NCBI GenBank assembly: GCA_902583455.1
Contig: CACHVY010000001.1
Location: forward strand, 62,001-126,000
Reading direction: 5' to 3'
DNA from: an uncultured Pelagibacteraceae bacterium
GTDB taxonomy: Bacteria; Pseudomonadota; Alphaproteobacteria; Pelagibacterales; Pelagibacteraceae
DNA length: 64,000 nt
The notes beneath the pieces were generated by a model that saw only the letters and a list, made by a program, of their open reading frames with translations, did no database searches and had not been told where the DNA came from. The translations under genes and the position numbers were made by a program. Position 1 is the stretch's first letter; the number at the start of each line of letters is the position of its first letter. Below, one piece after another: positions 2 through 53,289 of the stretch.

Positions 2-433
2 CACGCATCAGCCATGAGAAGGTGCTTGGACTTCAAAAATGTAGATTTAATTTCAATTGGCATAAGAAATATCTCAAAAGAAGAAATTCCTTTTTTAAAA
101 AAAAATGATAGCAGGATCAAAATATTTTGGGCTAAAGATCAAAAAAAATGGAATTTAAAATATTTTAAAAGATTAATTAAAAATAAGAATGTATATTTAA
201 CTTTTGACGTAGATGGTTTAGACTCTAGTATTATGCCTGCGACTGGAACTCCCGAACCAGGAGGCTTGTTTTGGTATGAAACGTTAAGTTTAATCAAAAC
301 TACCTTTAAGAATGCGAATGTAATAGGAGCAGATATAAATGAATTAGCCCCAATTAAAGGATTTAATTCATATAATTTTTTAGTGGCAAAACTTGCTTAT
401 AAGATACTGACGTATAAATTTTTTTTAAAATAA
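2..433 (+). CDS. Agmatinase/arginase-family ureohydrolase, 3' part (5' end off window)
   Basis: This is the C-terminal portion (about 143 residues) of a binuclear-manganese ureohydrolase. The reading frame is open to the first base, where a His-Ala-Ser-Ala-Met-Arg-Arg stretch matches the substrate-loop region of agmatinases, so the internal ATG at 14 is not the real start. The family signature DVDGLDSSIMPATGTPEPGG is intact, with the Asp residues that bind the metals. The upstream HxDxHxD-type ligands would lie outside the window. The family hydrolyses agmatine, arginine or a related guanidino compound to urea. The substrate cannot be told from this part. The gene converges on the next one with a one-base gap and no visible terminator. 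Confidence 0.88.
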   Translation, partial: HASAMRRCLDFKNVDLISIGIRNISKEEIPFLKKNDSRIKIFWAKDQKKWNLKYFKRLIKNKNVYLTFDVDGLDSSIMPATGTPEPGGLFWYETLSLIKTTFKNANVIGADINELAPIKGFNSYNFLVAKLAYKILTYKFFLK

Positions 434-434
434 T

Positions 435-983
435 TTAGACTGGCTTAAATGTACCAAGTAATAATCTAAATGGTACAAGCATTATTAATGCTATAAATAT
501 TTTTACACCTAAGTCACCAAGTGATAAAGTTATCCAAGGCACTCCAGTTCCATAAAATGAAATAGAAAAGAATAAAAACGTATCAACAGTTGAGCCTATT
601 AGTGATGAAAATAAAGGAGCAACAAACCATGTTTTTCTTCTTAATCTATCAAAAACTTGAACATCTAACAATTGCGCAACTATAAATGCTGTTCCAGACC
701 CAATTGCTATTCTAATTGAGATTAAATCAGAAAAATTTGTAGAAAATATAAGTGTAAATAATATTCCAATTGTGAAACCAAAATAAACAATCTTTCTAGC
801 TACTATTTTACCAAAAGATCTATTGGCTAAATCAGTAATTAAAAAAGCTATTGGGTAACTAAAAGCTCCGTAGGTTAAAATATTTTCCAATCCGTAATAT
901 TTGACAGGAAACTGGACTAGAAAATTTGAAATTAGTACTACAAACCCCATTAAAAGGGATAAGGTTAAAAACAACCTATTCAT
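435..983 (-). CDS. Queuosine precursor transporter family (YhhQ/VUT) membrane protein
   Basis: This is a hydrophobic 182-residue protein with about six membrane segments. It carries the conserved ITDLANRSFGK region near residue 50 and a RIAIGSGTAFIVAQLLDVQ segment near 90-110, as in the DUF165/YhhQ family. E. coli YhhQ imports preQ0/preQ1 for queuosine tRNA modification, so import of a deazapurine precursor across the inner membrane is the likely role. The start codon overlaps the rpmB stop by one base, so the two genes are probably translationally coupled. The family assignment is firm, but the exact substrate is inferred. Confidence 0.82.
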   Translation of the reverse strand: MNRLFLTLSLLMGFVVLISNFLVQFPVKYYGLENILTYGAFSYPIAFLITDLANRSFGKIVARKIVYFGFTIGILFTLIFSTNFSDLISIRIAIGSGTAFIVAQLLDVQVFDRLRRKTWFVAPLFSSLIGSTVDTFLFFSISFYGTGVPWITLSLGDLGVKIFIALIMLVPFRLLLGTFKPV

Positions 984-1264
984 TATGCTGATTTTTGGAT
1001 TATGCTTTTTTTAATTTTTTTTAATCTTATAGATAAATTTTTTGATTTCACAGTTTTCATAAATTGATCAAAGCTTCCTTTTTTATCTATAGATCTCATT
1101 GCTGCATTAGAGACAGTTATCTTTAGTTTTTTGTTTAATAATTCACTTTTAAAACTGACCTTTTTAACACTTGGTAAAAATCTTCTTTTAACTTTATTGT
1201 TCGCATGACTAACCTTGTGGCCTTTTAAAGGTCTTTTTCCAGTTAATTCGCACTTTTTTGGCAT
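983..1264 (-). CDS. rpmB: 50S ribosomal protein L28
   Basis: This 93-residue basic protein begins MPKKCELTGKRPLKGHKVSH, the typical L28 N-terminus with its CxxTGK motif. It belongs to the large ribosomal subunit. The length is normal for alphaproteobacteria. A sigma70-like promoter lies almost on top of the start codon, so the transcript is predicted to have nearly no 5' leader. The base string next to the ATG is not a Shine-Dalgarno sequence. The gene is followed without a gap by the queuosine-precursor transporter. Confidence 0.96.
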   Translation of the reverse strand: MPKKCELTGKRPLKGHKVSHANNKVKRRFLPSVKKVSFKSELLNKKLKITVSNAAMRSIDKKGSFDQFMKTVKSKNLSIRLKKIKKSIIQKSA

Positions 1265-1272
1265 GAGGAGAA

Positions 1273-1301
1273 TGTATAATTGTACAATTTGATTCAGTCA
1301 A
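1273..1301 (-). promoter_or_regulatory. Predicted sigma70 promoter of rpmB
   Basis: On the minus strand, TTGACT (1296-1301) and TATACA (1273-1278) are separated by exactly 17 bases, in the 39-nt gap between pyrD and rpmB. A start about 7 bases after the -10 box falls near 1266, only about two bases before the rpmB ATG at 1264. The prediction rests on the motifs and spacing alone. Confidence 0.55.
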
Positions 1302-1303
1302 GT

Positions 1304-2341
1304 TTATAATTTACCAATAATATCGGAATAATTTTTTATATTTTTTTCCTTTAATATTTTTTTAAGTTCTTCATTAATTTTTATCGCAATTTTAGGTCCT
1401 CTAAAAACCATGCCTGTATAAAGTTGAACAAAATTAGCCCCACTCAAAAATTTTTTGTATGCCGTTTCTCCAGATTCCACACCCCCCACACCAATAATTT
1501 TTATTTGTCCATTTAAATTTTTAAAAAAATTATTTATCAATTTATTTGATATATCGTTCAAAGGTTTACCCGATAAACCGCCTTTCTGAAATTTTTGATG
1601 GTCTTTCAGGTTATCTCTATTTTGATCGGTAGTATTTGAAACAATTAACGCACTGACTTTATATTGTATTAATATTTTAGATATATCTTTAACAATATTA
1701 TTATCAATATCTGGTGAAACCTTTAAAGCAATTGGAATGTCGCTATTTAATTTTTTTTTTTCAGAAAAAATTTTATCTAATAAATCGCCTAATTCATCTA
1801 AATTATGAAAATCTCTTAAGTTTTCTGTATTAGGTGATGAAATATTAATTGTTATATAATCTGCTAATTTATAAAATTTATTAAATCCAATTAGATAGTC
1901 TCCTACTCTATCTTTGCTGTTCCAATTTGGCCCTATGTTTACACCAAGTATACCAATCGGTTTATTTTTTTTTATTCTATCACTTACAACATCACTGCCT
2001 GAATTATTAAAACCAAGACGATTTATTAAAGCTTTATCGTTCTCTAACCTAAAAACTCTTGGTTTTTTGTTTCCATATTGTTTTAAAGGTGTAACTGTTC
2101 CCACCTCAACAAAACCGAAACCTAGATTAAATAATGAATTATAAACCTCGGCATCTTTGTCAAAACCAGCGGCAACCCCGATTGGATTTTTTATCTCTCT
2201 TCCAAATAATTCAGATTTTAAATATGATACTTCTGAAATTTTTTGTTTTAAAAACAAATTTGTTTTAAGAGCCTTAATGGCTAATGTATGTGCCAATTCA
2301 GGATCCAATTTAAATATCAATGGTCTAATTTTATCGAACAT
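1304..2341 (-). CDS. pyrD: Dihydroorotate dehydrogenase (quinone), class 2
   Basis: This enzyme oxidises dihydroorotate to orotate in pyrimidine synthesis and passes electrons to membrane quinone. The 345-residue protein has the class 2 N-terminal extension (MFDKIRPLIFKLDPELAH) that docks to the membrane. It also has the FMN-binding PIGVAAGFDKD segment near residue 55 and an ISSPNTENLR motif near 170 containing the catalytic serine of class 2 enzymes. A GVGGVESG phosphate-binding loop lies near 285. The start codon overlaps the lysK stop by one base, which suggests coupling. The length is normal. Confidence 0.95.
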   Translation of the reverse strand: MFDKIRPLIFKLDPELAHTLAIKALKTNLFLKQKISEVSYLKSELFGREIKNPIGVAAGFDKDAEVYNSLFNLGFGFVEVGTVTPLKQYGNKKPRVFRLENDKALINRLGFNNSGSDVVSDRIKKNKPIGILGVNIGPNWNSKDRVGDYLIGFNKFYKLADYITINISSPNTENLRDFHNLDELGDLLDKIFSEKKKLNSDIPIALKVSPDIDNNIVKDISKILIQYKVSALIVSNTTDQNRDNLKDHQKFQKGGLSGKPLNDISNKLINNFFKNLNGQIKIIGVGGVESGETAYKKFLSGANFVQLYTGMVFRGPKIAIKINEELKKILKEKNIKNYSDIIGKL

Positions 2342-3909
2342 TAATTTATTTTCTCTTTAATAAGTGAAATCATTTCCTTTCTTCCAAAAAAACTTATGAA
2401 AAACCCAAGCCTCGGACCATTTTCTACTCCGAAGACTACCTCGTAAATTAATTTAAACCATTCTCTAAGATTTTCCCTATAACCATTATTTTTTCCTACT
2501 GTATAAATTTCTGTTTGAATATCCTCAGGCTTCATATTGTCAGAACATTTTTCTAAGCTTGAAATTAAATCTAACAAAGCTTTTTTTTCTGAAATATTTG
2601 GTTTTTTATATTTTTTGTTTTGTTTAACGATATCGTTAAAGTATTTGATTGAATATTTTATTAAATTATTAAATATAGGAAAGTTGTCTTTAGCGATATC
2701 TTTTTTATAATTTTTTACAAATTTCCAAAGCATTTCTGCAGATGTAGCATTACTAGTTTCAACTAAATTTAAAAGCATGGAAAAACTCATGATGTAATCC
2801 TCCGAAGGAATTTTGCCATTATGAACGTGCCATAAAGGATTAAGCAACAACTCTCGTGCATCTTGTTTCTTACTTTTTTCGATTAGATCTAAATATTCAT
2901 CTACAGCTTTTGGTACAATTTCTTTATATAATTTTTTTGCTCTTTTTGGATTCTGATACATAAACAAAGATAAGCTTTCTGGTGAGGCATAATTAAGCCA
3001 TTCATCAATAGTTACACCGTTTCCTTTTGACTTTGAAATTTTTTCACCTTTATCATCAAGAAATAGTTCATAGGCAAAACCTGAAGGATTATTTTTTCCT
3101 AAGAGTTTAATTATTTTAGTAGATAGAATTGCACTCTCAATTAAGTCTTTTCCATACATTTCAAAATCAATATCAAGAGTATACCATCTCATTGCCCAAT
3201 CCACTTTCCATTGAAGTTTGCAATTACCATCCAAAATACTTGTCTCCAATTTTTTTCCATTATTATCAAAAATTAAAGATGAATTTTTTTTATTTATTTC
3301 GACAATGGGTATTTCTAATACTTGGCCTGTTTCTTTACATATAGGAAGAAATGGTGAATATGTTTTTTGTCTTTCTTTACCTAATGTAGGAATAATTATT
3401 TTCATTATCCCTTCGTAATTATCTAATATTTTTTTTAGTGTAACATTAAAAAATCCAGACTTATATAGAGTAGTTGAACTCATGAATTTATATTTGAAGT
3501 TGAATTCATCTAAAAATTTTTTCAGCATTTCATTATTATGTTCCCCAAAACTTTTAAATTTTCCAAAAGGGTCAGGAATATCTGTAAGAGGTTTATGCAA
3601 ATTTTTTTTAAGTATATCTTTGTTTGGAACGTTATCTGGCACTTTTCTCAAACCGTCTAAATCATCCGAAAACGTAATTATTTCTTTTGGTAAATCTGTC
3701 AAATAATTTAAGGCATTGACTACCATGCTTGTTCTTGCAACTTCTCCAAATGTTCCAATATGAGGTAATCCTGAAGGACCATATCCAGTCTGAAGTGTAA
3801 TTTTTCCTTTTTTGTCTATAAATTTTTTTCTTTCTTTGAGAATCTTTTTTGCCTCAACAATTGGCCAAGAGTTCGATTTTTCTATATCTTCTTTTTTAAT
3901 ATTCATCAT
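2341..3909 (-). CDS. lysK: Lysyl-tRNA synthetase, class I
   Basis: This enzyme attaches lysine to tRNA-Lys. It is the class I (archaeal-type) enzyme that many alphaproteobacteria use in place of the common class II LysS. The 522-residue sequence has the class I signatures: GPSGLPHIGTFGE around residues 44-56 (HIGH-type, here PHIG) and KISKSKGNG at 290-298 (KMSKS-type). Two consecutive ATG codons lie at the start; either could be used. It is followed by pyrD with a one-base overlap. It is divergent from trkH across an 85-base gap. Confidence 0.95.
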   Translation of the reverse strand: MMNIKKEDIEKSNSWPIVEAKKILKERKKFIDKKGKITLQTGYGPSGLPHIGTFGEVARTSMVVNALNYLTDLPKEIITFSDDLDGLRKVPDNVPNKDILKKNLHKPLTDIPDPFGKFKSFGEHNNEMLKKFLDEFNFKYKFMSSTTLYKSGFFNVTLKKILDNYEGIMKIIIPTLGKERQKTYSPFLPICKETGQVLEIPIVEINKKNSSLIFDNNGKKLETSILDGNCKLQWKVDWAMRWYTLDIDFEMYGKDLIESAILSTKIIKLLGKNNPSGFAYELFLDDKGEKISKSKGNGVTIDEWLNYASPESLSLFMYQNPKRAKKLYKEIVPKAVDEYLDLIEKSKKQDARELLLNPLWHVHNGKIPSEDYIMSFSMLLNLVETSNATSAEMLWKFVKNYKKDIAKDNFPIFNNLIKYSIKYFNDIVKQNKKYKKPNISEKKALLDLISSLEKCSDNMKPEDIQTEIYTVGKNNGYRENLREWFKLIYEVVFGVENGPRLGFFISFFGRKEMISLIKEKIN

Positions 3910-3994
3910 TAATTTAAAATAAACTGTATTTTAAGAACATATTTTATTCATATAATGTTGAAATTTATTTTCCATAAAATAATGTTCGTTAAAA

Positions 3995-5440
3995 ATGTCC
4001 AATTATAAAACAGTATTTTTTACTTTAGGGATTTTATTAATAATTTTAGGAGTTGCTATGCTAGTTCCTGTGGTGTTCCAACTCATTTACGATGAATTTG
4101 ATTCAACTTTCATTATTTCTGGAATTATAACAATTACTTTCGGAATATTGTTTTTTTTGTCTAACATAGATCATTTAAAATTAATAAATACACAACAAGC
4201 TTTTTTGTTAACAGCCTTATCATGGTTAAGTATTGCGGCATTTGGATCTTTACCATTTTTTTTCTCTGAATTGAATTTAACTATCACAGATTCTTTTTTT
4301 GAGAGCATGTCAGGCATAACAACTACAGGAGCAACAATATTAAGTAATATTGAAAGTTCTCCAAGAGGTATACTTGTCTGGAGATCAATGCTTCAATGGC
4401 TTGGGGGGATTGGAGTGATTTTGATGGCGATTACTCTTATGCCAATAATGAATATTGGTGGAATGCAACTATTAAAAATTTCTTCCTATGATACCTCTGA
4501 AAAAATATTGCCAAAATCAAAAGAAATCTCTCTAAAACTTATTATTGTATATACATCTTTGACTTTTTTGTGTGCATTTTTTTATAAAATTTTTGGTATG
4601 AACACATTCGATAGTTTGACACATTCTATGACAACTATCGCAACTGGAGGTTTTTCAAATTATGATCAGTCTATAGGGTACTTTAATAATGCATATATAG
4701 AAATTATTTCTATTTTATTTATTTTGTCAGGTAGTATTCCATTTATATTATATATAAAATTCATTTCCGATGATAAAAAAATCATATTCAAAGATGAACA
4801 AGTTAAACTTTTTTTTAAACTAACTTTAGTCTCAATATTAGTATTATTTATTTATCTTGTAATAGTTAATAAGGATGTTTTTGAAATACACTTAAGATCA
4901 GTAATTTTTAATGTAGTTTCAATTTTAACAGGCACAGGATATGTAACTAAAGAATTTGATCAATGGGGAAATTTTCCATTAATTTTTTTTTTAATACTTA
5001 TGTTTATTGGTGGTTGTGCTGGCTCAACCACATGTGGGATAAAAATTTTTAGAGTGCACATTTTGTATTACTTTGTAAGAAATCAATTGCTCAAAATTAT
5101 ATATCCAAGAGCAATAATAAATTTGAAATACAACAATAGCAAGGTTGAGGATAAGTTAATAGCTTCAATTGTATCATTTATATATCTTTATATTTTGATA
5201 TTTTTTGTGCTGGCTTCAATGCTAACTTTAACAGGTTTAGACTTTATAACTTCAATTTCCGGCGCTGCATCTTCTTTGTCCAATGTTGGGCCTGGTTTAG
5301 GAAACGAAATTGGACCAAATAGTAATTATTCTGGACTTCCTGATCAGTCTAAGTGGCTATTATCAGCAGGTATGATTTTAGGAAGACTTGAAATATTTGC
5401 GATTTTAATAATTTTTTTACCATCTTTTTGGAGAAAATAA
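3995..5440 (+). CDS. trkH: Trk-type potassium uptake membrane protein
   Basis: This is the membrane translocation subunit of a Trk K+ uptake system. The 481-residue protein is strongly hydrophobic. It contains repeated pore-loop selectivity segments typical of TrkH/KtrB: SMSGITTTGATIL near residue 105, TTIATGGFSNYD near 212, SILTGTGYVTKEFD near 308 and SSLSNVGPGLG near 425, each with the Gly that lines the filter. The partner TrkA is not in this window. The stop codon shares one base with the next ATG, so the permease downstream is probably co-translated. Confidence 0.93.
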   Translation: MSNYKTVFFTLGILLIILGVAMLVPVVFQLIYDEFDSTFIISGIITITFGILFFLSNIDHLKLINTQQAFLLTALSWLSIAAFGSLPFFFSELNLTITDSFFESMSGITTTGATILSNIESSPRGILVWRSMLQWLGGIGVILMAITLMPIMNIGGMQLLKISSYDTSEKILPKSKEISLKLIIVYTSLTFLCAFFYKIFGMNTFDSLTHSMTTIATGGFSNYDQSIGYFNNAYIEIISILFILSGSIPFILYIKFISDDKKIIFKDEQVKLFFKLTLVSILVLFIYLVIVNKDVFEIHLRSVIFNVVSILTGTGYVTKEFDQWGNFPLIFFLILMFIGGCAGSTTCGIKIFRVHILYYFVRNQLLKIIYPRAIINLKYNNSKVEDKLIASIVSFIYLYILIFFVLASMLTLTGLDFITSISGAASSLSNVGPGLGNEIGPNSNYSGLPDQSKWLLSAGMILGRLEIFAILIIFLPSFWRK

Positions 5441-6903
5441 TGAAAAGAAAATTTATATTTTTTTTTACTGAGAAACCACTTAAAATGATATTGTTAGGTT
5501 TTTCATCTGGATTACCTATACTTTTAGTATTTTCTACCTTATCAGTATGGTTAACTAAAGCTGGTATTGAGAGAAGTACTGTTACACTTTTTAGTTGGGC
5601 TGGATTTGCGTATGCTTTTAAATTTTTATGGTCTCCATTAGTAGATAAAGTTAGTATTCCTTTTTTTTCTAAAATGGGACATAGAAGAAGTTGGTTACTC
5701 TTAACCCAGCTGTTAATTATTTTTTCATTAATTCTCACGTCAATAAATGATCCTCAAAATAATATTTATATTACAGCTGTATGTATAACTCTTGTCGCTT
5801 TTTTTAGTGCAACCCAAGATATAATAATTGATGCTTACAGAATCGAGTCAGTAGACCAAAAATTGCAGGGGTCACTGTCTTCTACTTATATAGCAGGTTA
5901 CAGAGTTGGCATGCTTGTTGGTGGAGCTGGTAGCTTATGGCTAGCCTCATTTTGGGGGGCTGAGGTTTATGAACATAATGTTTGGAAAAAAGTATATCTA
6001 ACTATGTCATTATTAATGTTAATTGGTGTTTTTACGAATCTTGTATCTCATGAACCAAGTAAAAAAAAAATACTTTCTAATAAAACAAATTTGCACTTTA
6101 AATTCTTTGTAAATATATTAATTTCAGTAATAATATTCATATTTTCTTATTCAAATATACACAATCCTTTTACTGACAAAAACTTATTAAGTTTTTTCTT
6201 TACAATCTTAAAGCTAATGATTTGTTTTTTATTTAGCAGTTTTTATCTTTTTTTATTAATTAAATTGAGGTTACAAGATATGGTGATAATTAAAGAAAGC
6301 TACTTTAATCCAATTAAAAATTTTATAGATAGATACGGTAAAGTAGCTCTACTTATTTTGCTTTTGATATCACTTTATAGAATGGCAGATGTTGTTATGG
6401 GGGTTATGGCAAATATTTTTTATTTAGAAAAAGGGTATAGCATAAATGAAATCGCAACATATTCTAAATTTTTTGGAGTTTTTGCTACAATTTTAGGAGG
6501 ATTATTTGGTGGATATTTTGCTATGAAATTCGGAACAATGATCACTTTATTTATCGGCGGACTTATAGCATCATTAAGTAATCTACTTTTTGCTTGGTTG
6601 GCAACCACAGAAACTAATATTAAATACTTAATATCTGTGATTACTGCTGACAATATTTCTAGCGGTTTTGCAGGGGCTGCGTTTGTAATATACTTGTCTG
6701 GATTAACATCTGTAAGATTTACTGCTACTCAATATGCACTTTTCAGCTCATTAATGTTATTTTTACCTAAACTTTTAGCTGGTTATTCTGGAGCTTGGGT
6801 GGATGTAGTGGGTTATCAAGTCTACTTTATAACTACTGCTTTAATTGGAATACCAGTTTTATTTTTAATTATATACATTTCAAAAGTAGCACCAATCAGA
6901 TGA
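5440..6903 (+). CDS. MFS permease, AmpG-like (muropeptide) family
   Basis: This is a 487-residue polytopic membrane protein of the major facilitator superfamily, most like AmpG permeases. It starts with a short basic segment followed by KPLKMILLGFSSGLPILLVF, typical of AmpG. Further AmpG-like segments are FLWSPLVDK near residue 65 and SATQDIIIDAYRIE near 125. The ATG at 5440 is chosen over a TTG at 5428 because GGAG at 5430-5433 is well spaced from it. AmpG imports anhydromuropeptides for cell-wall recycling; here substrate is inferred from family and from the peptidase gene that overlaps its stop codon (ATGA). Confidence 0.82.
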   Translation: MKRKFIFFFTEKPLKMILLGFSSGLPILLVFSTLSVWLTKAGIERSTVTLFSWAGFAYAFKFLWSPLVDKVSIPFFSKMGHRRSWLLLTQLLIIFSLILTSINDPQNNIYITAVCITLVAFFSATQDIIIDAYRIESVDQKLQGSLSSTYIAGYRVGMLVGGAGSLWLASFWGAEVYEHNVWKKVYLTMSLLMLIGVFTNLVSHEPSKKKILSNKTNLHFKFFVNILISVIIFIFSYSNIHNPFTDKNLLSFFFTILKLMICFLFSSFYLFLLIKLRLQDMVIIKESYFNPIKNFIDRYGKVALLILLLISLYRMADVVMGVMANIFYLEKGYSINEIATYSKFFGVFATILGGLFGGYFAMKFGTMITLFIGGLIASLSNLLFAWLATTETNIKYLISVITADNISSGFAGAAFVIYLSGLTSVRFTATQYALFSSLMLFLPKLLAGYSGAWVDVVGYQVYFITTALIGIPVLFLIIYISKVAPIR

Positions 6904-7613
6904 TAAATAATTATCCTATAGTAAATATTTACGAAAAAAGGTCTTTGAATTCAAAATTATCATCACAACTGATTTATGGTGAAAAGTTTAAAATATTAAA
7001 AAAAAAAAAAGACTGGTTAAAAATTAAGACTTCATATGATAATTACACTGGTTTCATAAAAAAAAGAAAATTTTTGGAGCGTATTAAAATTACACACAAA
7101 GTCTCATCCTTAAGTGCCAAATTATACTCAAAGCCAGAGGAGAAATTTTTACTCAATATTAAATTACCATTTTGTTCAAAAATTTCAGTGACCGAAATAA
7201 AAGATAAATTTTGTAAATTTGATAATTATTGGATAAAAAAAAAAGATGTTGTTTCAATAAATTATAGTCAGCAGATTTTTAAAGATATTGAAATGTTCAA
7301 AAATATTCCATACAAATGGGGTGGAAAAACCTATAGAGGGATAGATTGCTCTGGATTGGTTCAAATTTTCTATAAATTTAATAATTTATATTGCCCAAGA
7401 GATACAAAAGACCAAATAAAATATTTTAAGAGAGCAAAAAAAATTAAAAAAAATTCTATTGTTTTTTGGAAAGGACATGTTGCAATTTGTTTATCGAAAA
7501 ATCAATTAATACATGCTTATGGTCCTAAAAAAAAAGTTCTGTTTATGAGTATAAAAAAAACATTCAAATTGATTGAGAGAACAGCTAAATTAAAAGTTAT
7601 AGCAATTAGATAA
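6900..7613 (+). CDS. SH3-domain NlpC/P60 cysteine peptidase (probably cytosolic)
   Basis: The start at 6900 overlaps the permease stop as ATGA, giving 237 residues. The N-terminal half looks like bacterial SH3 repeats. The C-terminal half is an NlpC/P60 domain with the catalytic cysteine in GIDCSGLVQ, a histidine in GHVAI and a second conserved His in LIHAYG. The family cleaves D-glutamyl-diaminoacid bonds in peptidoglycan peptides. No signal peptide is visible, so a cytosolic role in degrading imported muropeptides is likely, like YkfC-type enzymes. A run of 13 adenines (6998-7010) sits inside the gene. The next gene begins immediately after the stop. Confidence 0.85.
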   Translation: MINNYPIVNIYEKRSLNSKLSSQLIYGEKFKILKKKKDWLKIKTSYDNYTGFIKKRKFLERIKITHKVSSLSAKLYSKPEEKFLLNIKLPFCSKISVTEIKDKFCKFDNYWIKKKDVVSINYSQQIFKDIEMFKNIPYKWGGKTYRGIDCSGLVQIFYKFNNLYCPRDTKDQIKYFKRAKKIKKNSIVFWKGHVAICLSKNQLIHAYGPKKKVLFMSIKKTFKLIERTAKLKVIAIR

Positions 7614-9128
7614 ATGAGCATATTAAACTTAAAAAAAAAATTTGAAGAATTAAAAGAAAAATTTTTGGTTAATAAATATGAAGAGGTTATAAAAGAATGT
7701 GAAGATATATTAAAAGAAAATAAAATAGATGTTTTTTATAATCTATTGTGTTTAGCATATAACAATAAAGGTGAGACCTATAAGGCTATTGATGTAATGA
7801 ATGAGGCATTAAAGCATAATCCTAAAAATGTAGATTTTTATAACAATATTGGAATGAGTTATAAAAATATATATAAGTATAAAAAAGCTGAGGATTTTTA
7901 CGTCAAAGGCTTAGAGCTTGACCAAAACAACCTTAAAATATTGAACAATTTGGGGAATTTAAAGAAAAGTTTATACAAAATTGATGAAGCTGCAGAAATT
8001 TTTGAAAAAATTTTATCTATTCAGCCTAATGCAATTACAGTTATTTATAATTTAGCACTTTTATATAGCCAAATAGGTAAATTTGAGGAGTCAAAAAAAT
8101 TGTTAAAAAAAATGTTAACCATTAAATCAGAGTTAACAATGGCGGATAGGATGATATCACAAACAACAAAATATAATGCGGACCACCCACATTTTCTTAA
8201 TATGAAAAAGAAAATGTCTATGATGAAGCTTAATGATAATTCGTTATTACACTTACATTATGCCTTAGGAAAGGCATACAATGACTTAAAAGATTATGAA
8301 AAATCATTTGAAAATTATAAAAAAGCTAATCACTTATCAAAAAAATTAAGTAAATATGATTTTGAAAGTGATAAAAAAAAATTTTCCTTTATTAAAGATA
8401 AATTTTCTTCATTAGGTGATTTAAAATTAAACACAAACAGTAGAGGTTTTTTATTTATAATTGGTTTACCAAGATCTGGGACCTCTTTAACAGAGCAAAT
8501 TCTTTCATCTCATCAAAATGTATTTGGGGGAGGAGAATTACCTTATATGGAAAAAATATTTAAGAACTATATTGAAACAAAAGAAAATTTGGATCAAGAT
8601 GATTTATTAAGATGTAAAAAGGATTATATTGAGTTCACATCGAGCCTTGACGATTCAAACAAATTTTTTACTGACAAAGCACCACTAAACTTTTTTTATT
8701 TGGGGTTTATAATAAAATTTTTACCTAATTCTAAATTCATTAATTTAATCAGAAATCCGATTGATAATTGCTGGTCTATGTATAAAAATTGTTTTCCTAC
8801 TAAGATTAATTTTACTGATGATTTGGTAGATTTAGTTAATTATCATAAACAATATCAAAGCTTGATGAATTTTTGGAAAAAATTTTTTCCAAGCCTTATA
8901 TACGATCTTCAATATGAAAATTTAGTAAATAATACTAAAATAGAAGTTGAAAACTTATTAAAATTTTGTTCGCTAGATTGGGATGAAAATTGTTTAAATC
9001 ATCATAAAAATAAAAGAGCAATCAAAACTATAAGTTTTAATCAAGCCAGAGAGCCAATTTACAAATCCTCTGTAAAATCATTTAGTGGATATGAAAATTA
9101 TCTTGAACCTCTTAAAGAATTAATTTAA
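7614..9128 (+). CDS. TPR-sulfotransferase fusion protein, copy 1
   Basis: This 504-residue protein has two parts. Residues about 1-265 form tetratricopeptide-type helical repeats, for example an AIDVMNEALKHNPKNVDFYN unit. Residues about 275-500 form a sulfotransferase domain with the PAPS-binding P-loop-like FIIGLPRSGTSLTEQIL, followed by GGGELPYM, DKAPLNF and a FINLIRNPIDNCWS segment matching the 3'-phosphate-binding region. Such fusions transfer sulfate to proteins or cell-surface molecules; the acceptor is unknown here. No signal peptide or membrane helix is visible. It abuts the NlpC/P60 gene with no gap and is a tandem paralogue of the next gene, with a 107-bp identical tract. Confidence 0.85.
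   Translation: MSILNLKKKFEELKEKFLVNKYEEVIKECEDILKENKIDVFYNLLCLAYNNKGETYKAIDVMNEALKHNPKNVDFYNNIGMSYKNIYKYKKAEDFYVKGLELDQNNLKILNNLGNLKKSLYKIDEAAEIFEKILSIQPNAITVIYNLALLYSQIGKFEESKKLLKKMLTIKSELTMADRMISQTTKYNADHPHFLNMKKKMSMMKLNDNSLLHLHYALGKAYNDLKDYEKSFENYKKANHLSKKLSKYDFESDKKKFSFIKDKFSSLGDLKLNTNSRGFLFIIGLPRSGTSLTEQILSSHQNVFGGGELPYMEKIFKNYIETKENLDQDDLLRCKKDYIEFTSSLDDSNKFFTDKAPLNFFYLGFIIKFLPNSKFINLIRNPIDNCWSMYKNCFPTKINFTDDLVDLVNYHKQYQSLMNFWKKFFPSLIYDLQYENLVNNTKIEVENLLKFCSLDWDENCLNHHKNKRAIKTISFNQAREPIYKSSVKSFSGYENYLEPLKELI
7725..7831 (+). repeat. 107-bp direct repeat, copy 1 (gene-conversion tract)
   Basis: These 107 bases are identical, including every third codon position, to 9298-9404. They encode part of the first TPR units of the sulfotransferase paralogues. 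Flanking sequence diverges at synonymous sites, so the tract is much younger than the duplication. Confidence 0.97.
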
Positions 9129-9186
9129 AAAAATTTAGTCAAATTGTAGTGTGAAATAACTAAACTTAAGTTATGAATATGTGATA

Positions 9187-10701
9187 ATGAGTGAGACAGA
9201 TTTAAAAAATAAATTCGAAGAATTAAAGAAAAAGTTTTTAGAAAAAAAATATGATCAAGTTATTGAGGAATGTGGTTTAATTTTGGAAAATAATCATATA
9301 GATGTTTTTTATAATCTATTGTGTTTAGCATATAACAATAAAGGTGAGACCTATAAGGCTATTGATGTAATGAATGAGGCATTAAAGCATAATCCTAAAA
9401 ATGTTGATTTTTTAAATAATTTAGGAATGTTTTACTCAAATATTTATGAATACAAAAAAGCTGAAAAAAAATACAAAATAGGTCTGGAAATTGATAAAAA
9501 TAATTTAAGTTTATTAAATAATTTAGCTAATTTAAAAAAAGATTTAGATCAAACCGAAGAAGCAGTGAATATCTATGAAATGATTTTATCTATAAAGCCA
9601 GATGCATTGGTAGTAATGTATAACTTGGCAGGACTATATAATAGTTTAGGTAAATTTGAGAAATCTAAAGAATTATATTTTCAAATGTTAAAGCTTAAAA
9701 AAGATTTTACTGAGGCAGATAGGCTAATTTCTCAAATGGAAAAATATAATTCTAAACATAAACACTTTTTAAACATAAAGGAAAAGTTATTAAATATGAA
9801 GCTTAACGATAATTCGCTGTTACATTTGCATTTTGCATTAGGAAAAGCATATGGAGATCAAAAAAACTATGTTGAGTCATTCAATAATTACAAAAAAGCA
9901 AATGATATATCTAAAAAAATTAGTAATTATAATTTTAGCAAAAGTAAAAAAAGGTTTGATACAATTAAAGAAAAATTTAAATCTTTAAATGATTGTAAAT
10001 TAAATAAAATAGATAGAAAAGTTATTTTTATAGTAGGAATGCCTAGATCAGGCACCTCCTTAACAGAGCAAATTTTGGCGTCCCATAAAAACGTTATTGG
10101 TGGAGGTGAATTACCTTATATACAAAAAATATATAACGATTATTTTAAATCAAATCAAAATATTGAAAAAAATGACTTACTAAAATGTAATAAAGAATAC
10201 TTAAATTTCTTAACTAATATCGATGATTCGAGCAAGGTGTTTACGGATAAGGCTCCGTTAAACTTTTTTTATATAGGATTTATTTTGAAATTTTTGCCAA
10301 ACTCAAAATTTATAAATATAGTTAGAAATCCTATTGATAATTGTTGGTCAATTTATAAAAATTATTTTCCAACCAAAATAGATTTTGGAAACGATTTAAG
10401 TGATTTGTCTAAATATTACAGATCATATAAAGATTTAATGTTCTTTTGGAAAAGGCTTTTCCCAAATGAAATTTATGATTTAAGATATGAAAATCTAATT
10501 AACAATACGAAGGAAGAAGTAGAAAAATTACTTAAATTTTGCTCTTTGGAGTGGGACGAAAATTGTCTAGAGCACCACAAAAATAAGAGAGTTATAAAAA
10601 CAATAAGTTTTAATCAAGCAAGAAGGCCAATTTACAGCACTTCGCTAAAATCATACGCTGGCTACGAAAATTATCTTTTGGATCTCATGGATCTTAATTA
10701 A
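9187..10701 (+). CDS. TPR-sulfotransferase fusion protein, copy 2
   Basis: This is a 504-residue paralogue of the preceding gene with the same architecture: N-terminal TPR repeats, then a sulfotransferase domain with FIVGMPRSGTSLTEQIL near residue 280, GGGELPYI, DKAPLNFFYIGFI and NIVRNPIDNCWS. The ATG at 9187 is preferred; a GTG two codons upstream (9181) is possible. A 58-base gap separates it from copy 1, without a clear promoter or Shine-Dalgarno. Its stop overlaps that of the convergent tyrA by 4 bases. Sulfotransferases need PAPS; whether this organism makes it cannot be seen here. Confidence 0.85.
   Translation: MSETDLKNKFEELKKKFLEKKYDQVIEECGLILENNHIDVFYNLLCLAYNNKGETYKAIDVMNEALKHNPKNVDFLNNLGMFYSNIYEYKKAEKKYKIGLEIDKNNLSLLNNLANLKKDLDQTEEAVNIYEMILSIKPDALVVMYNLAGLYNSLGKFEKSKELYFQMLKLKKDFTEADRLISQMEKYNSKHKHFLNIKEKLLNMKLNDNSLLHLHFALGKAYGDQKNYVESFNNYKKANDISKKISNYNFSKSKKRFDTIKEKFKSLNDCKLNKIDRKVIFIVGMPRSGTSLTEQILASHKNVIGGGELPYIQKIYNDYFKSNQNIEKNDLLKCNKEYLNFLTNIDDSSKVFTDKAPLNFFYIGFILKFLPNSKFINIVRNPIDNCWSIYKNYFPTKIDFGNDLSDLSKYYRSYKDLMFFWKRLFPNEIYDLRYENLINNTKEEVEKLLKFCSLEWDENCLEHHKNKRVIKTISFNQARRPIYSTSLKSYAGYENYLLDLMDLN
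9298..9404 (+). repeat. 107-bp direct repeat, copy 2 (gene-conversion tract)
   Basis: This is identical to 7725-7831; see that entry. The identity ends abruptly at both ends (a/t mismatch on each side). Confidence 0.97.
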
Positions 10702-11603
10702 AAGATATCCCTTCCGAAATTAGGTTTTGAAATATCCTGCTTTAGTTCAATAATTTGTTTTCGGACTTTTTTTGAATTTTTTAAAATTTTTAGTATATTT
10801 TTGTTACTTTTTCTTTTTATAAGTCTTTTAAATTTATTAAGATTCTTAATAAACATATTTATTGAATCAATAATATTATCGCTGTTACCAAAGAAAATAT
10901 CACGCCACATTATTTCGTTTGAGGCCGCTGTTCTTGAAAAATCTCTTAGGCCGCCAGCACTGTACTTAATGACATTCTTTTTATTTTTCTTTTGAAAATC
11001 TATCGCAGTTTTTATAAGATTATATGCAATTAGGTGGGGTAAATGACTTGTTATCGAAAAAATTTTATCATGATCAATAGAATTCATAAATATTATTTTT
11101 GATCCAATTTTTTTCCAAAATCTCTCAATTTTTTTCAATCTTTTTGCAGATTTGTCTTTATTTTTTAAAATAATACACCATTTATCTCTAAACAAATTTT
11201 TATTACCAAACTCTGGTCCGCTGACCTCTGATCCTGCAATTGGATGGCTTAATATGAATATGTCTTTTAAATTTTTATTTTCGTTAATTAACTTCTCTAT
11301 ATTACGTTTTGTAGAACCTGTATCGCTTATTAGATTCTTTGAAGAAACATATTTTTGTAGACTCTTAATTATATTTTTATATTGGCTAATGTGTGTACAA
11401 AGAAGAATTAGATCCATATCAGAAACCTGATGGTCTATTTTTTTAATAAATCTAATTTTCTTATTAATTTTTTTTATAAAGTGAATATTTTTTTTAGATT
11501 TTTCAAACACATAGATGTTTTTTGAAATTTTTTTGCTTATAGAAGCTCTCAAAATTGACGATCCTATTAGTCCACATCCAATTATTAATATATTGTTAAA
11601 CAT
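10698..11603 (-). CDS. tyrA: Prephenate/cyclohexadienyl dehydrogenase
   Basis: This enzyme oxidatively decarboxylates prephenate or arogenate in tyrosine synthesis. The 301-residue protein opens with an NAD(P)-binding Rossmann motif (ILIIGCGLIGSSILRA, residues about 5-20). It has the TyrA signatures SDTGSTKRNIE near 95 and LSHPIAGSEVSGPEFG near 118-133, and SHLPHLIAYNL near 188. It overlaps the end of hisC by 8 bases, and the pair is likely one transcript. It is somewhat lysine-rich, as are its neighbours. Whether it prefers prephenate or arogenate cannot be read from the sequence. Confidence 0.92.
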   Translation of the reverse strand: MFNNILIIGCGLIGSSILRASISKKISKNIYVFEKSKKNIHFIKKINKKIRFIKKIDHQVSDMDLILLCTHISQYKNIIKSLQKYVSSKNLISDTGSTKRNIEKLINENKNLKDIFILSHPIAGSEVSGPEFGNKNLFRDKWCIILKNKDKSAKRLKKIERFWKKIGSKIIFMNSIDHDKIFSITSHLPHLIAYNLIKTAIDFQKKNKKNVIKYSAGGLRDFSRTAASNEIMWRDIFFGNSDNIIDSINMFIKNLNKFKRLIKRKSNKNILKILKNSKKVRKQIIELKQDISKPNFGRDIF

Positions 11604-52828: not shown

Positions 52829-53289
52829 TATTTTTTATTTTCCTCTGCCTTTGGAGCTTCTTTTGGAGCATCAGCTTTTTTCTCTTCCGCCTTTGGAGCT
52901 TCTTTTGGAGCATCAGCTTTTTTCTCTTCTGCCTTTGGAGCATCAGCTTTTTTATCCTCTTTTTTTTCAGCACCAGCATCTTGTTTTTTTCTATCTTTTT
53001 TTGGAATAGCTTTGTTGGGATTATTACCAGCTGCAGGCATTTCAATTAATTTATTCTCCCCTAAAATTCTTGCAACTCTAGTAGTTGGTTTTGCTCCTTG
53101 ACTTAACCAATATTTAATTCTCTCAGATTCAAGACCTACTCTATCTTTTTTATCTTTTGGTAACAGTGGATTGAAATATCCTAGTTTTTCTATAAATCTT
53201 CCATCTCTTGGAAATCTGCTGTCTGCTACAACTATCTTATATACTGGTCTTTTTTTTGTACCGCCCATTGATAATCTAAGTTTTAACAT
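52828..53289 (-). CDS. rpsP: 30S ribosomal protein S16 with repetitive C-terminal tail
   Basis: The first about 85 residues are standard S16: [40 protein letters not shown] and [18 protein letters not shown]. They are followed by about 65 residues of low-complexity Lys/Ala/Asp/Pro/Glu sequence built on a 14-residue unit ([14 protein letters not shown]). The total is 153 residues. A strong AAGGAG Shine-Dalgarno (53295-53300) lies 5 bases before the ATG, one of the best in the window. It heads the trmD-rplS group after ffh. Confidence 0.95.
52850..52953 (-). repeat. 42-bp in-frame tandem repeat in rpsP
   Basis: Two almost identical 42-base units (52850-52891 and 52892-52933, differing at one base near the end) are followed by a third, partial unit lacking 12 bases. 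The repeat encodes a 14-residue block of the S16 tail, so copy number can change without breaking the frame. Confidence 0.92.

Follow-up and report, generated by a model that had tools for sequence, protein, structure and literature searches.

Repeated homogenisation of one short segment in tandem TPR-sulfotransferase paralogues of SAR11 bacteria

SAR11 is an abundant group of ocean bacteria. Here, we analysed a stretch of 64,000 nucleotides from an uncultured Pelagibacteraceae bacterium (below, the window), which covers positions 62001-126000 of contig 1 of the source assembly G000 (GCA_902583455.1; 954,718 bases in 19 contigs, 81% complete). Two genes of the same architecture, referred to as A and B, lie in tandem between two neighbours which form the borders of the locus:

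6795-7613, forward strand: left neighbour and left border of the locus, an SH3/NlpC_P60 protein according to Pfam
7614-9128, forward strand: gene A, an open reading frame of 504 amino acids with TPR repeats and a Sulfotransfer_3 domain (PF13469, E 2.6e-38; several TPR Pfam models)
7725-7831, forward strand: converted tract of gene A, an exact match to 9298-9404, whose original extent was probably to 7839 (residues 38-75)
9129-9186, forward strand: short spacer between A and B
9187-10701, forward strand: gene B, the tandem paralogue, 504 amino acids as read, of the same architecture as A (PF13469, E 2.9e-41)
9298-9404, forward strand: converted tract of gene B, which probably once reached 9412 and has since acquired one substitution, at 9405
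10698-11603, reverse strand: right neighbour and right border of the locus, an open reading frame which we take to be TyrA-like (prephenate dehydrogenase)

Gene B was read from the ATG at 9187, while the mechanical open reading frame opens at the GTG at 9181. At C1:166000-167334 the same genome encodes another homologue of gene A, a distant one (26% identical).

Both A and B carry the sulfotransferase domain PF13469, and their sulfotransferase activity is a prediction from sequence. The residues P286, R287, S288, G289 and T290, presumably the PAPS-binding loop, do not vary among 14 aligned homologues. In searches by sequence and by fold, the catalytic domain resembles that of tyrosylprotein sulfotransferases (PDB 3ap1, 5wrj) and the TPR part resembles that of the TPR-bearing OGT (PDB 1w3b); unlike in these enzymes, TPR and sulfotransferase domains are combined here in one protein.

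The initial annotation had reported an identity of 107 bp between the two genes, and both the length and the end coordinates were borne out: 7725-7831 and 9298-9404 match exactly, the match is maximal at 107 bp, and all synonymous sites within it are identical. No other exact direct repeat on the same strand of the 64-kb window exceeds 41 bp; next in length comes a 41-bp exact match in a short local repeat at 52847-52953. The genes had also been said to differ widely outside the tract, and indeed the overall nucleotide identity of A and B is 71.6%; the example given, 8223-8279 against 9796-9852, has 9 differences in 57 bases, with an amino-acid change in one codon.

The tract encodes residues 38-75. 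In the predicted structure (mean pLDDT 89.4) helices span residues 39-51 and 55-68 and the next pair starts from 73, while the next Pfam TPR repeat begins at residue 74. Judged from this model, the tract corresponds to one predicted TPR helix pair. In the window and in two relatives with both genes, L033 and L036 (described below), the following TPR units together with the sulfotransferase domain show 63.7-74.5% identity between A and B, in agreement with the earlier statement that the sulfotransferase domains stay distinct. The three following TPR units (residues 74-175) taken by themselves are only 63.7-72.5% identical at the nucleotide level over the three pairs, thus the exchange does not extend to the entire TPR module. 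The earlier suggestion that the two enzymes could trade binding partners through exchange of the recognition module is not supported, given a single helix pair followed by divergent units; the exchange makes the A and B proteins alike at one repeat and does not swap specificities.

Homologues of the two genes were sought in other genomes. A search with gene A in 61 genomes found matches at E ≤ 0.001 in 50 of them; further gene A searches gave 5 genomes at 1e-170 among 394 relatives of genome G277 and 5 at 1e-150 among 399 genus genomes around genome G016, and gene B was found in 7 of 399 genus genomes at E ≤ 1e-140. The searched sets overlap and draw from the larger genus. At these cut-offs a second copy was present only in the window and in G032, which we take to be the same assembly as L036 and do not count as independent support. 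L033 came from a genome-contig search returning 15 loci. Exact direct repeats of at least 35 bp, sought across 62 loci, occurred only in the loci of the window, L033 and L036/G032. A scan of viral contigs with gene B for a phage source gave 20 pattern matches and no relative.

The neighbouring genes were compared at 12 other loci. In nine of them (L033-L038, L060, L061 and L063) the locus lies between the NlpC/P60-type gene and a downstream trio which we take to be TyrA-, HisC- and MetX-like genes; in L061 these neighbours are more distant. The other three (L039, L040 and L041, with proteins 35-37% identical) lie elsewhere, with neither border gene next to them. Counting the window and the nine relatives, two copies occupy the locus in three of the ten genomes (the window, L033 and L036) and one copy in seven. 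In a tree of the gene body, L034 and L038 have single copies which group with A, L035 and L037 have single copies which group with B, and L060 (labelled L006 in the trees) and L061 belong to neither group; the single copy of L063, left out of the trees, is closest to B by identity. As single copies from different species group with either A or B, the two genes predate the split of the compared species. An A-type or a B-type gene has thus been retained in different species at the same fixed place. The tree of the flanking genes is mostly without resolution, except that it joins L035 with L036.

Two single copies show traces of the other type. The body of L035 is B-type, and its positions 6001-6060 form an A-like start (88.3% identity to the A copy of L036 and 68.3% to its B copy over 60 nt). 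L034 has an A-type body, and its last 85 nt are slightly B-like, with 70.6-77.6% identity to B copies and 63.5-68.2% to A copies. From these sequences L035 and L034 may be A/B fusion products of deletion, with stretches too short to claim it; a tree of the last part of the gene leaves a crossover origin of the single copies undecided.

The most informative relative is L033 (SCGC AAA795-F16), a separate genome whose genes are 92.1% (A) and 91.4% (B) identical to those of the window, with 89.0% identity over four flanking genes. Its A and B copies share an identical tract of 115 bp, whose first base corresponds to 7725. The only difference between A and B of the window within 7725-7839 is at 7832, where both copies of L033 and the A copy of the window agree; the change therefore occurred in gene B of the window, and both tracts probably ran over 7725-7839. 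By this comparison, the tract of the window was probably 115 bp long originally, and gene B later gained one substitution opposite 7832.

The contents of the two tracts are not the same. Between the window and L033 they differ at 7 sites in 107 bp, and at every one of them A and B of the same genome share the base peculiar to that genome. In the quartet of the four genes, sites sorted by genome and sites sorted by gene number 7 and 0 in the tract against 5 and 284 outside it (Fisher p 2e-11), with 7 crosswise sites in all. Homoplasy or other small exchanges do exist, as seen from the 5 genome-sorted sites outside the tract and the 7 crosswise ones. In the quartets with L036, the tract holds 9 and 8 genome-sorted sites and, in both cases, 0 gene-sorted sites. 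In comparison, each of 1171 overlapping 115-bp windows placed outside the tract contains 0-3 genome-sorted and 12-37 gene-sorted sites.

The trees give the same picture. In the tree of the gene body, the A copies and the B copies of the different species form separate clades, whereas the tract unites the two copies of each genome for the window and L033, with modest support (79.1/79 and 76.3/75). The history of the tract thus differs from that of the rest of the gene, in the trees as well as in the sorting of sites, as is characteristic of a conversion tract. Over the TPR unit of residues 40-73, A and B are 99.0% identical in the window and 100% in L033, while the orthologues of the two genomes are only 93.1% and 92.2% identical; paralogues exceed orthologues in likeness, as in concerted evolution, in this unit and not in the remainder of the gene. 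In L036 the copies share 42 bp (7761-7802), inside the same island, and their unit 40-73 has 84.3% identity in comparison to 65.7-72.5% in the next three units. Among the three two-copy genomes, independent concerted evolution is therefore seen in more than one lineage, clearly in the window and L033 and partly in L036.

We then asked how often such patterns arise by chance. An alignment of 11 homologues, in which 881 columns are polymorphic, was permuted 10000 times. The longest match between A and B of the window runs through 63 polymorphic sites, while no permutation exceeded 20 (0/10000). The L033 pair matches over 66 polymorphic sites (0/10000), and the L036 pair over 29 (0/10000; 63/10000 for third positions alone). 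The six cross-genome A/B comparisons gave runs of 8-19, reached by 10 to 8328 of 10000 permutations; the two lowest counts, 10 and 135, belong to the window against L033, whose tracts resemble each other. In 1000 conversion-free simulations on the gene-body tree, which take sites as independent and have clusters of slow sites outside their model, the observed 107, 115 and 42 bp (window, L033 and L036) were never reached, the longest simulated runs being 33, 33 and 40. Likewise, 7 genome-sorted sites in a 115-bp window were found in none of the 1000 simulations (maximum 5). The run of identity between the paralogues lies far above what their divergence would predict, again as in a conversion tract, and chance is excluded as its source.

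Since the source assembly is in 19 contigs and the analysis covered assembled sequences, one copy of the segment could in principle have been written into both genes by an assembly or amplification artefact. However, L033 is a separate genome with the same left edge and has its seven private differences in both copies, and L036 presents a third, partial case; an artefact is therefore very unlikely. The homologous locus in SAR11 relatives, a comparison which the initial annotation had proposed as a check, thus spoke in favour of a genuine exchange.

The identity of every synonymous site in the 107 bp could also suggest that purifying selection on the nucleotides, through an RNA element or codon choice, holds the copies identical without any exchange. 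The tract is, however, not simply frozen, because its orthologue divergence between the window and L033 is near the gene mean (7 and 8 differences per 115 bp, against means of 9.3 and 9.1 elsewhere), and the changes went the same way in both copies. The predicted fold of the tract is unremarkable as well (z 0.74), and an RNA element was rejected on this ground. Such constraint on the nucleotides is, in our opinion, extremely improbable.

The corresponding edges in the window and L033 would also be expected if there had been one ancestral conversion only, followed by too little time for differences to accrue. This reading is contradicted by the numbers: about 7.5 differences between A and B are expected per genome since the split of the window and L033, whereas the window has 1 and L033 has 0 (Poisson product 2.6e-6). 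It would moreover need seven matched parallel changes, while outside the tract only 5 of 113 differences between the A copies of the window and L033 are mirrored in B. We regard a single event as hardly credible. From the genome-sorted state of all 7 of 7 differing tract sites and from the missing A/B differences it follows that conversion continued in both lineages after their split. Of the recent gene conversion originally proposed, the conversion is strongly supported, but the single recent event has to give way to a recurrent process in two lineages.

Selection could act on top of this process, if the same TPR unit is favoured in both enzymes (e.g., by a shared partner) and converted cells win. 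This would add a cause to conversion and is compatible with the mechanics of repeated exchange; it would be in line with the close match of the tract to one TPR helix pair (residues 38-75) and with the edges corresponding in two species. The mechanics alone, however, account for the edges. Moreover, non-synonymous change between the window and L033 is not significantly lower in the tract (1/88) than in the rest of gene A (46/1155; p 0.25), and single-copy relatives keep the unit without special conservation (68.7-82.6% nucleotide identity to the copies of the window in five genes). Thus, we find a role of such selection unlikely.

The direction of transfer was examined at sites where the outgroup copies differ by type. 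Only at site 7819 do the three outgroup A copies all differ from the three outgroup B copies; the window and L033 have the A state there. A wider set of 16 diagnostic sites was defined by L034 and L038 agreeing against L035 and the B copy of L036. The B copies of the window and of L033 show the A state at all six sites of 7794-7819, the right half, and the A copy of L036 shows the B state at 7 of the 16. The outgroup states are mixed, and sequence may have passed from A to B as well as from B to A.

The comparison of the window and L033 demonstrates that the segment was homogenised repeatedly, between edges that correspond, and we consider it highly probable that the tract is kept identical between these old tandem paralogues by repeated ectopic gene conversion within the chromosome. 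An ancestral conversion would have set the edges of the tract. The resulting 107-115 bp of perfect identity would then offer RecA the most favourable site for strand invasion from one copy into the other, new mutations inside the tract would be copied over repeatedly between A and B, and extension would halt at flanks which are about 30% different. No special function of the segment would be necessary. That the edges are shared while the contents are private agrees with an island which came down from a common ancestor and has been refreshed since.

Regarding the machinery, RecA was found in G000, and neither MutS nor MutL was found in this 81% complete assembly, to which the search for MutL was confined. 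MutS was found in none of 59 genus genomes (58 at least 90% complete, plus that of the window), the same search being positive in 11 of 14 controls. According to PMC12374537, mutS and mutL are missing from SAR11 subclades Ic and IIa.A, to one of which the window may belong, and this is linked there to promiscuous recombination; the terms 'gene conversion' and 'paralog' are absent from its main text. The absence of MutS/MutL probably eases exchange of this kind.

More tentatively, and with slightly less than even confidence, we propose that the segment is a self-sustaining conversion island across species boundaries, in which a stretch barely long enough for pairing by RecA would stay identical between two otherwise diverging genes. 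Its identity would trigger the very conversion that restores it in bacteria without MutS/MutL, so that one repeat of the two enzymes would evolve as a unit. It is the edges alone which suggest the self-sustaining step. Against it stand the figures given in PMC3924818, by which the minimal efficient segment in yeast is about 200 bp and conversion takes place mainly above 80% identity; the tract is shorter and the genes are less alike. Only three two-copy genomes were found, the third of which (L036) has the shorter match of 42 bp, and this also limits the case for repeated conversion. If the proposal is true despite these figures, the case becomes more interesting.

Recurrent conversion between adjacent bacterial paralogues is already known. 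PE_PGRS17 and PE_PGRS18 are adjacent tandem paralogues with a short tract converted independently, at least four times by the authors' count (PMC1762029); their reference list includes a paper on lacking mismatch correction in mycobacteria. The events there are tracked by a 12/40 polymorphism among tubercle bacilli, whereas here two species share the edges of the tract, each with its own sequence inside. Non-reciprocal exchange between two chromosomal paralogues is also described for the duplicate tuf genes of Salmonella, for which conversion has been measured (PMC5485169); these are near-identical whole genes marked by 12 nucleotide differences, whereas A and B differ by about 28% and are kept alike over 107-115 bp only. 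In the concerted evolution of rRNA operons, copies within a genome are more alike than orthologues between species; PMC6002687 and a 2005 review by Santoyo and Romero reportedly deal with this subject. In contrast to these operons, the likeness here is confined to a single short stretch within two protein-coding genes. Neither this pair of genes nor conversion between SAR11 paralogues was described among the matches listed in our literature search, outside which most subscription journals lay.

The locus thus provides a new and clean SAR11 example of a known process, in which one short segment is affected across species. It gives an indication of how short an identical segment (about 107-115 bp, with flanks about 30% different) may be while it still goes on recombining within a SAR11 chromosome. 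It is also a warning that gene trees and dN/dS values computed on such tandem paralogues are built on mosaics.
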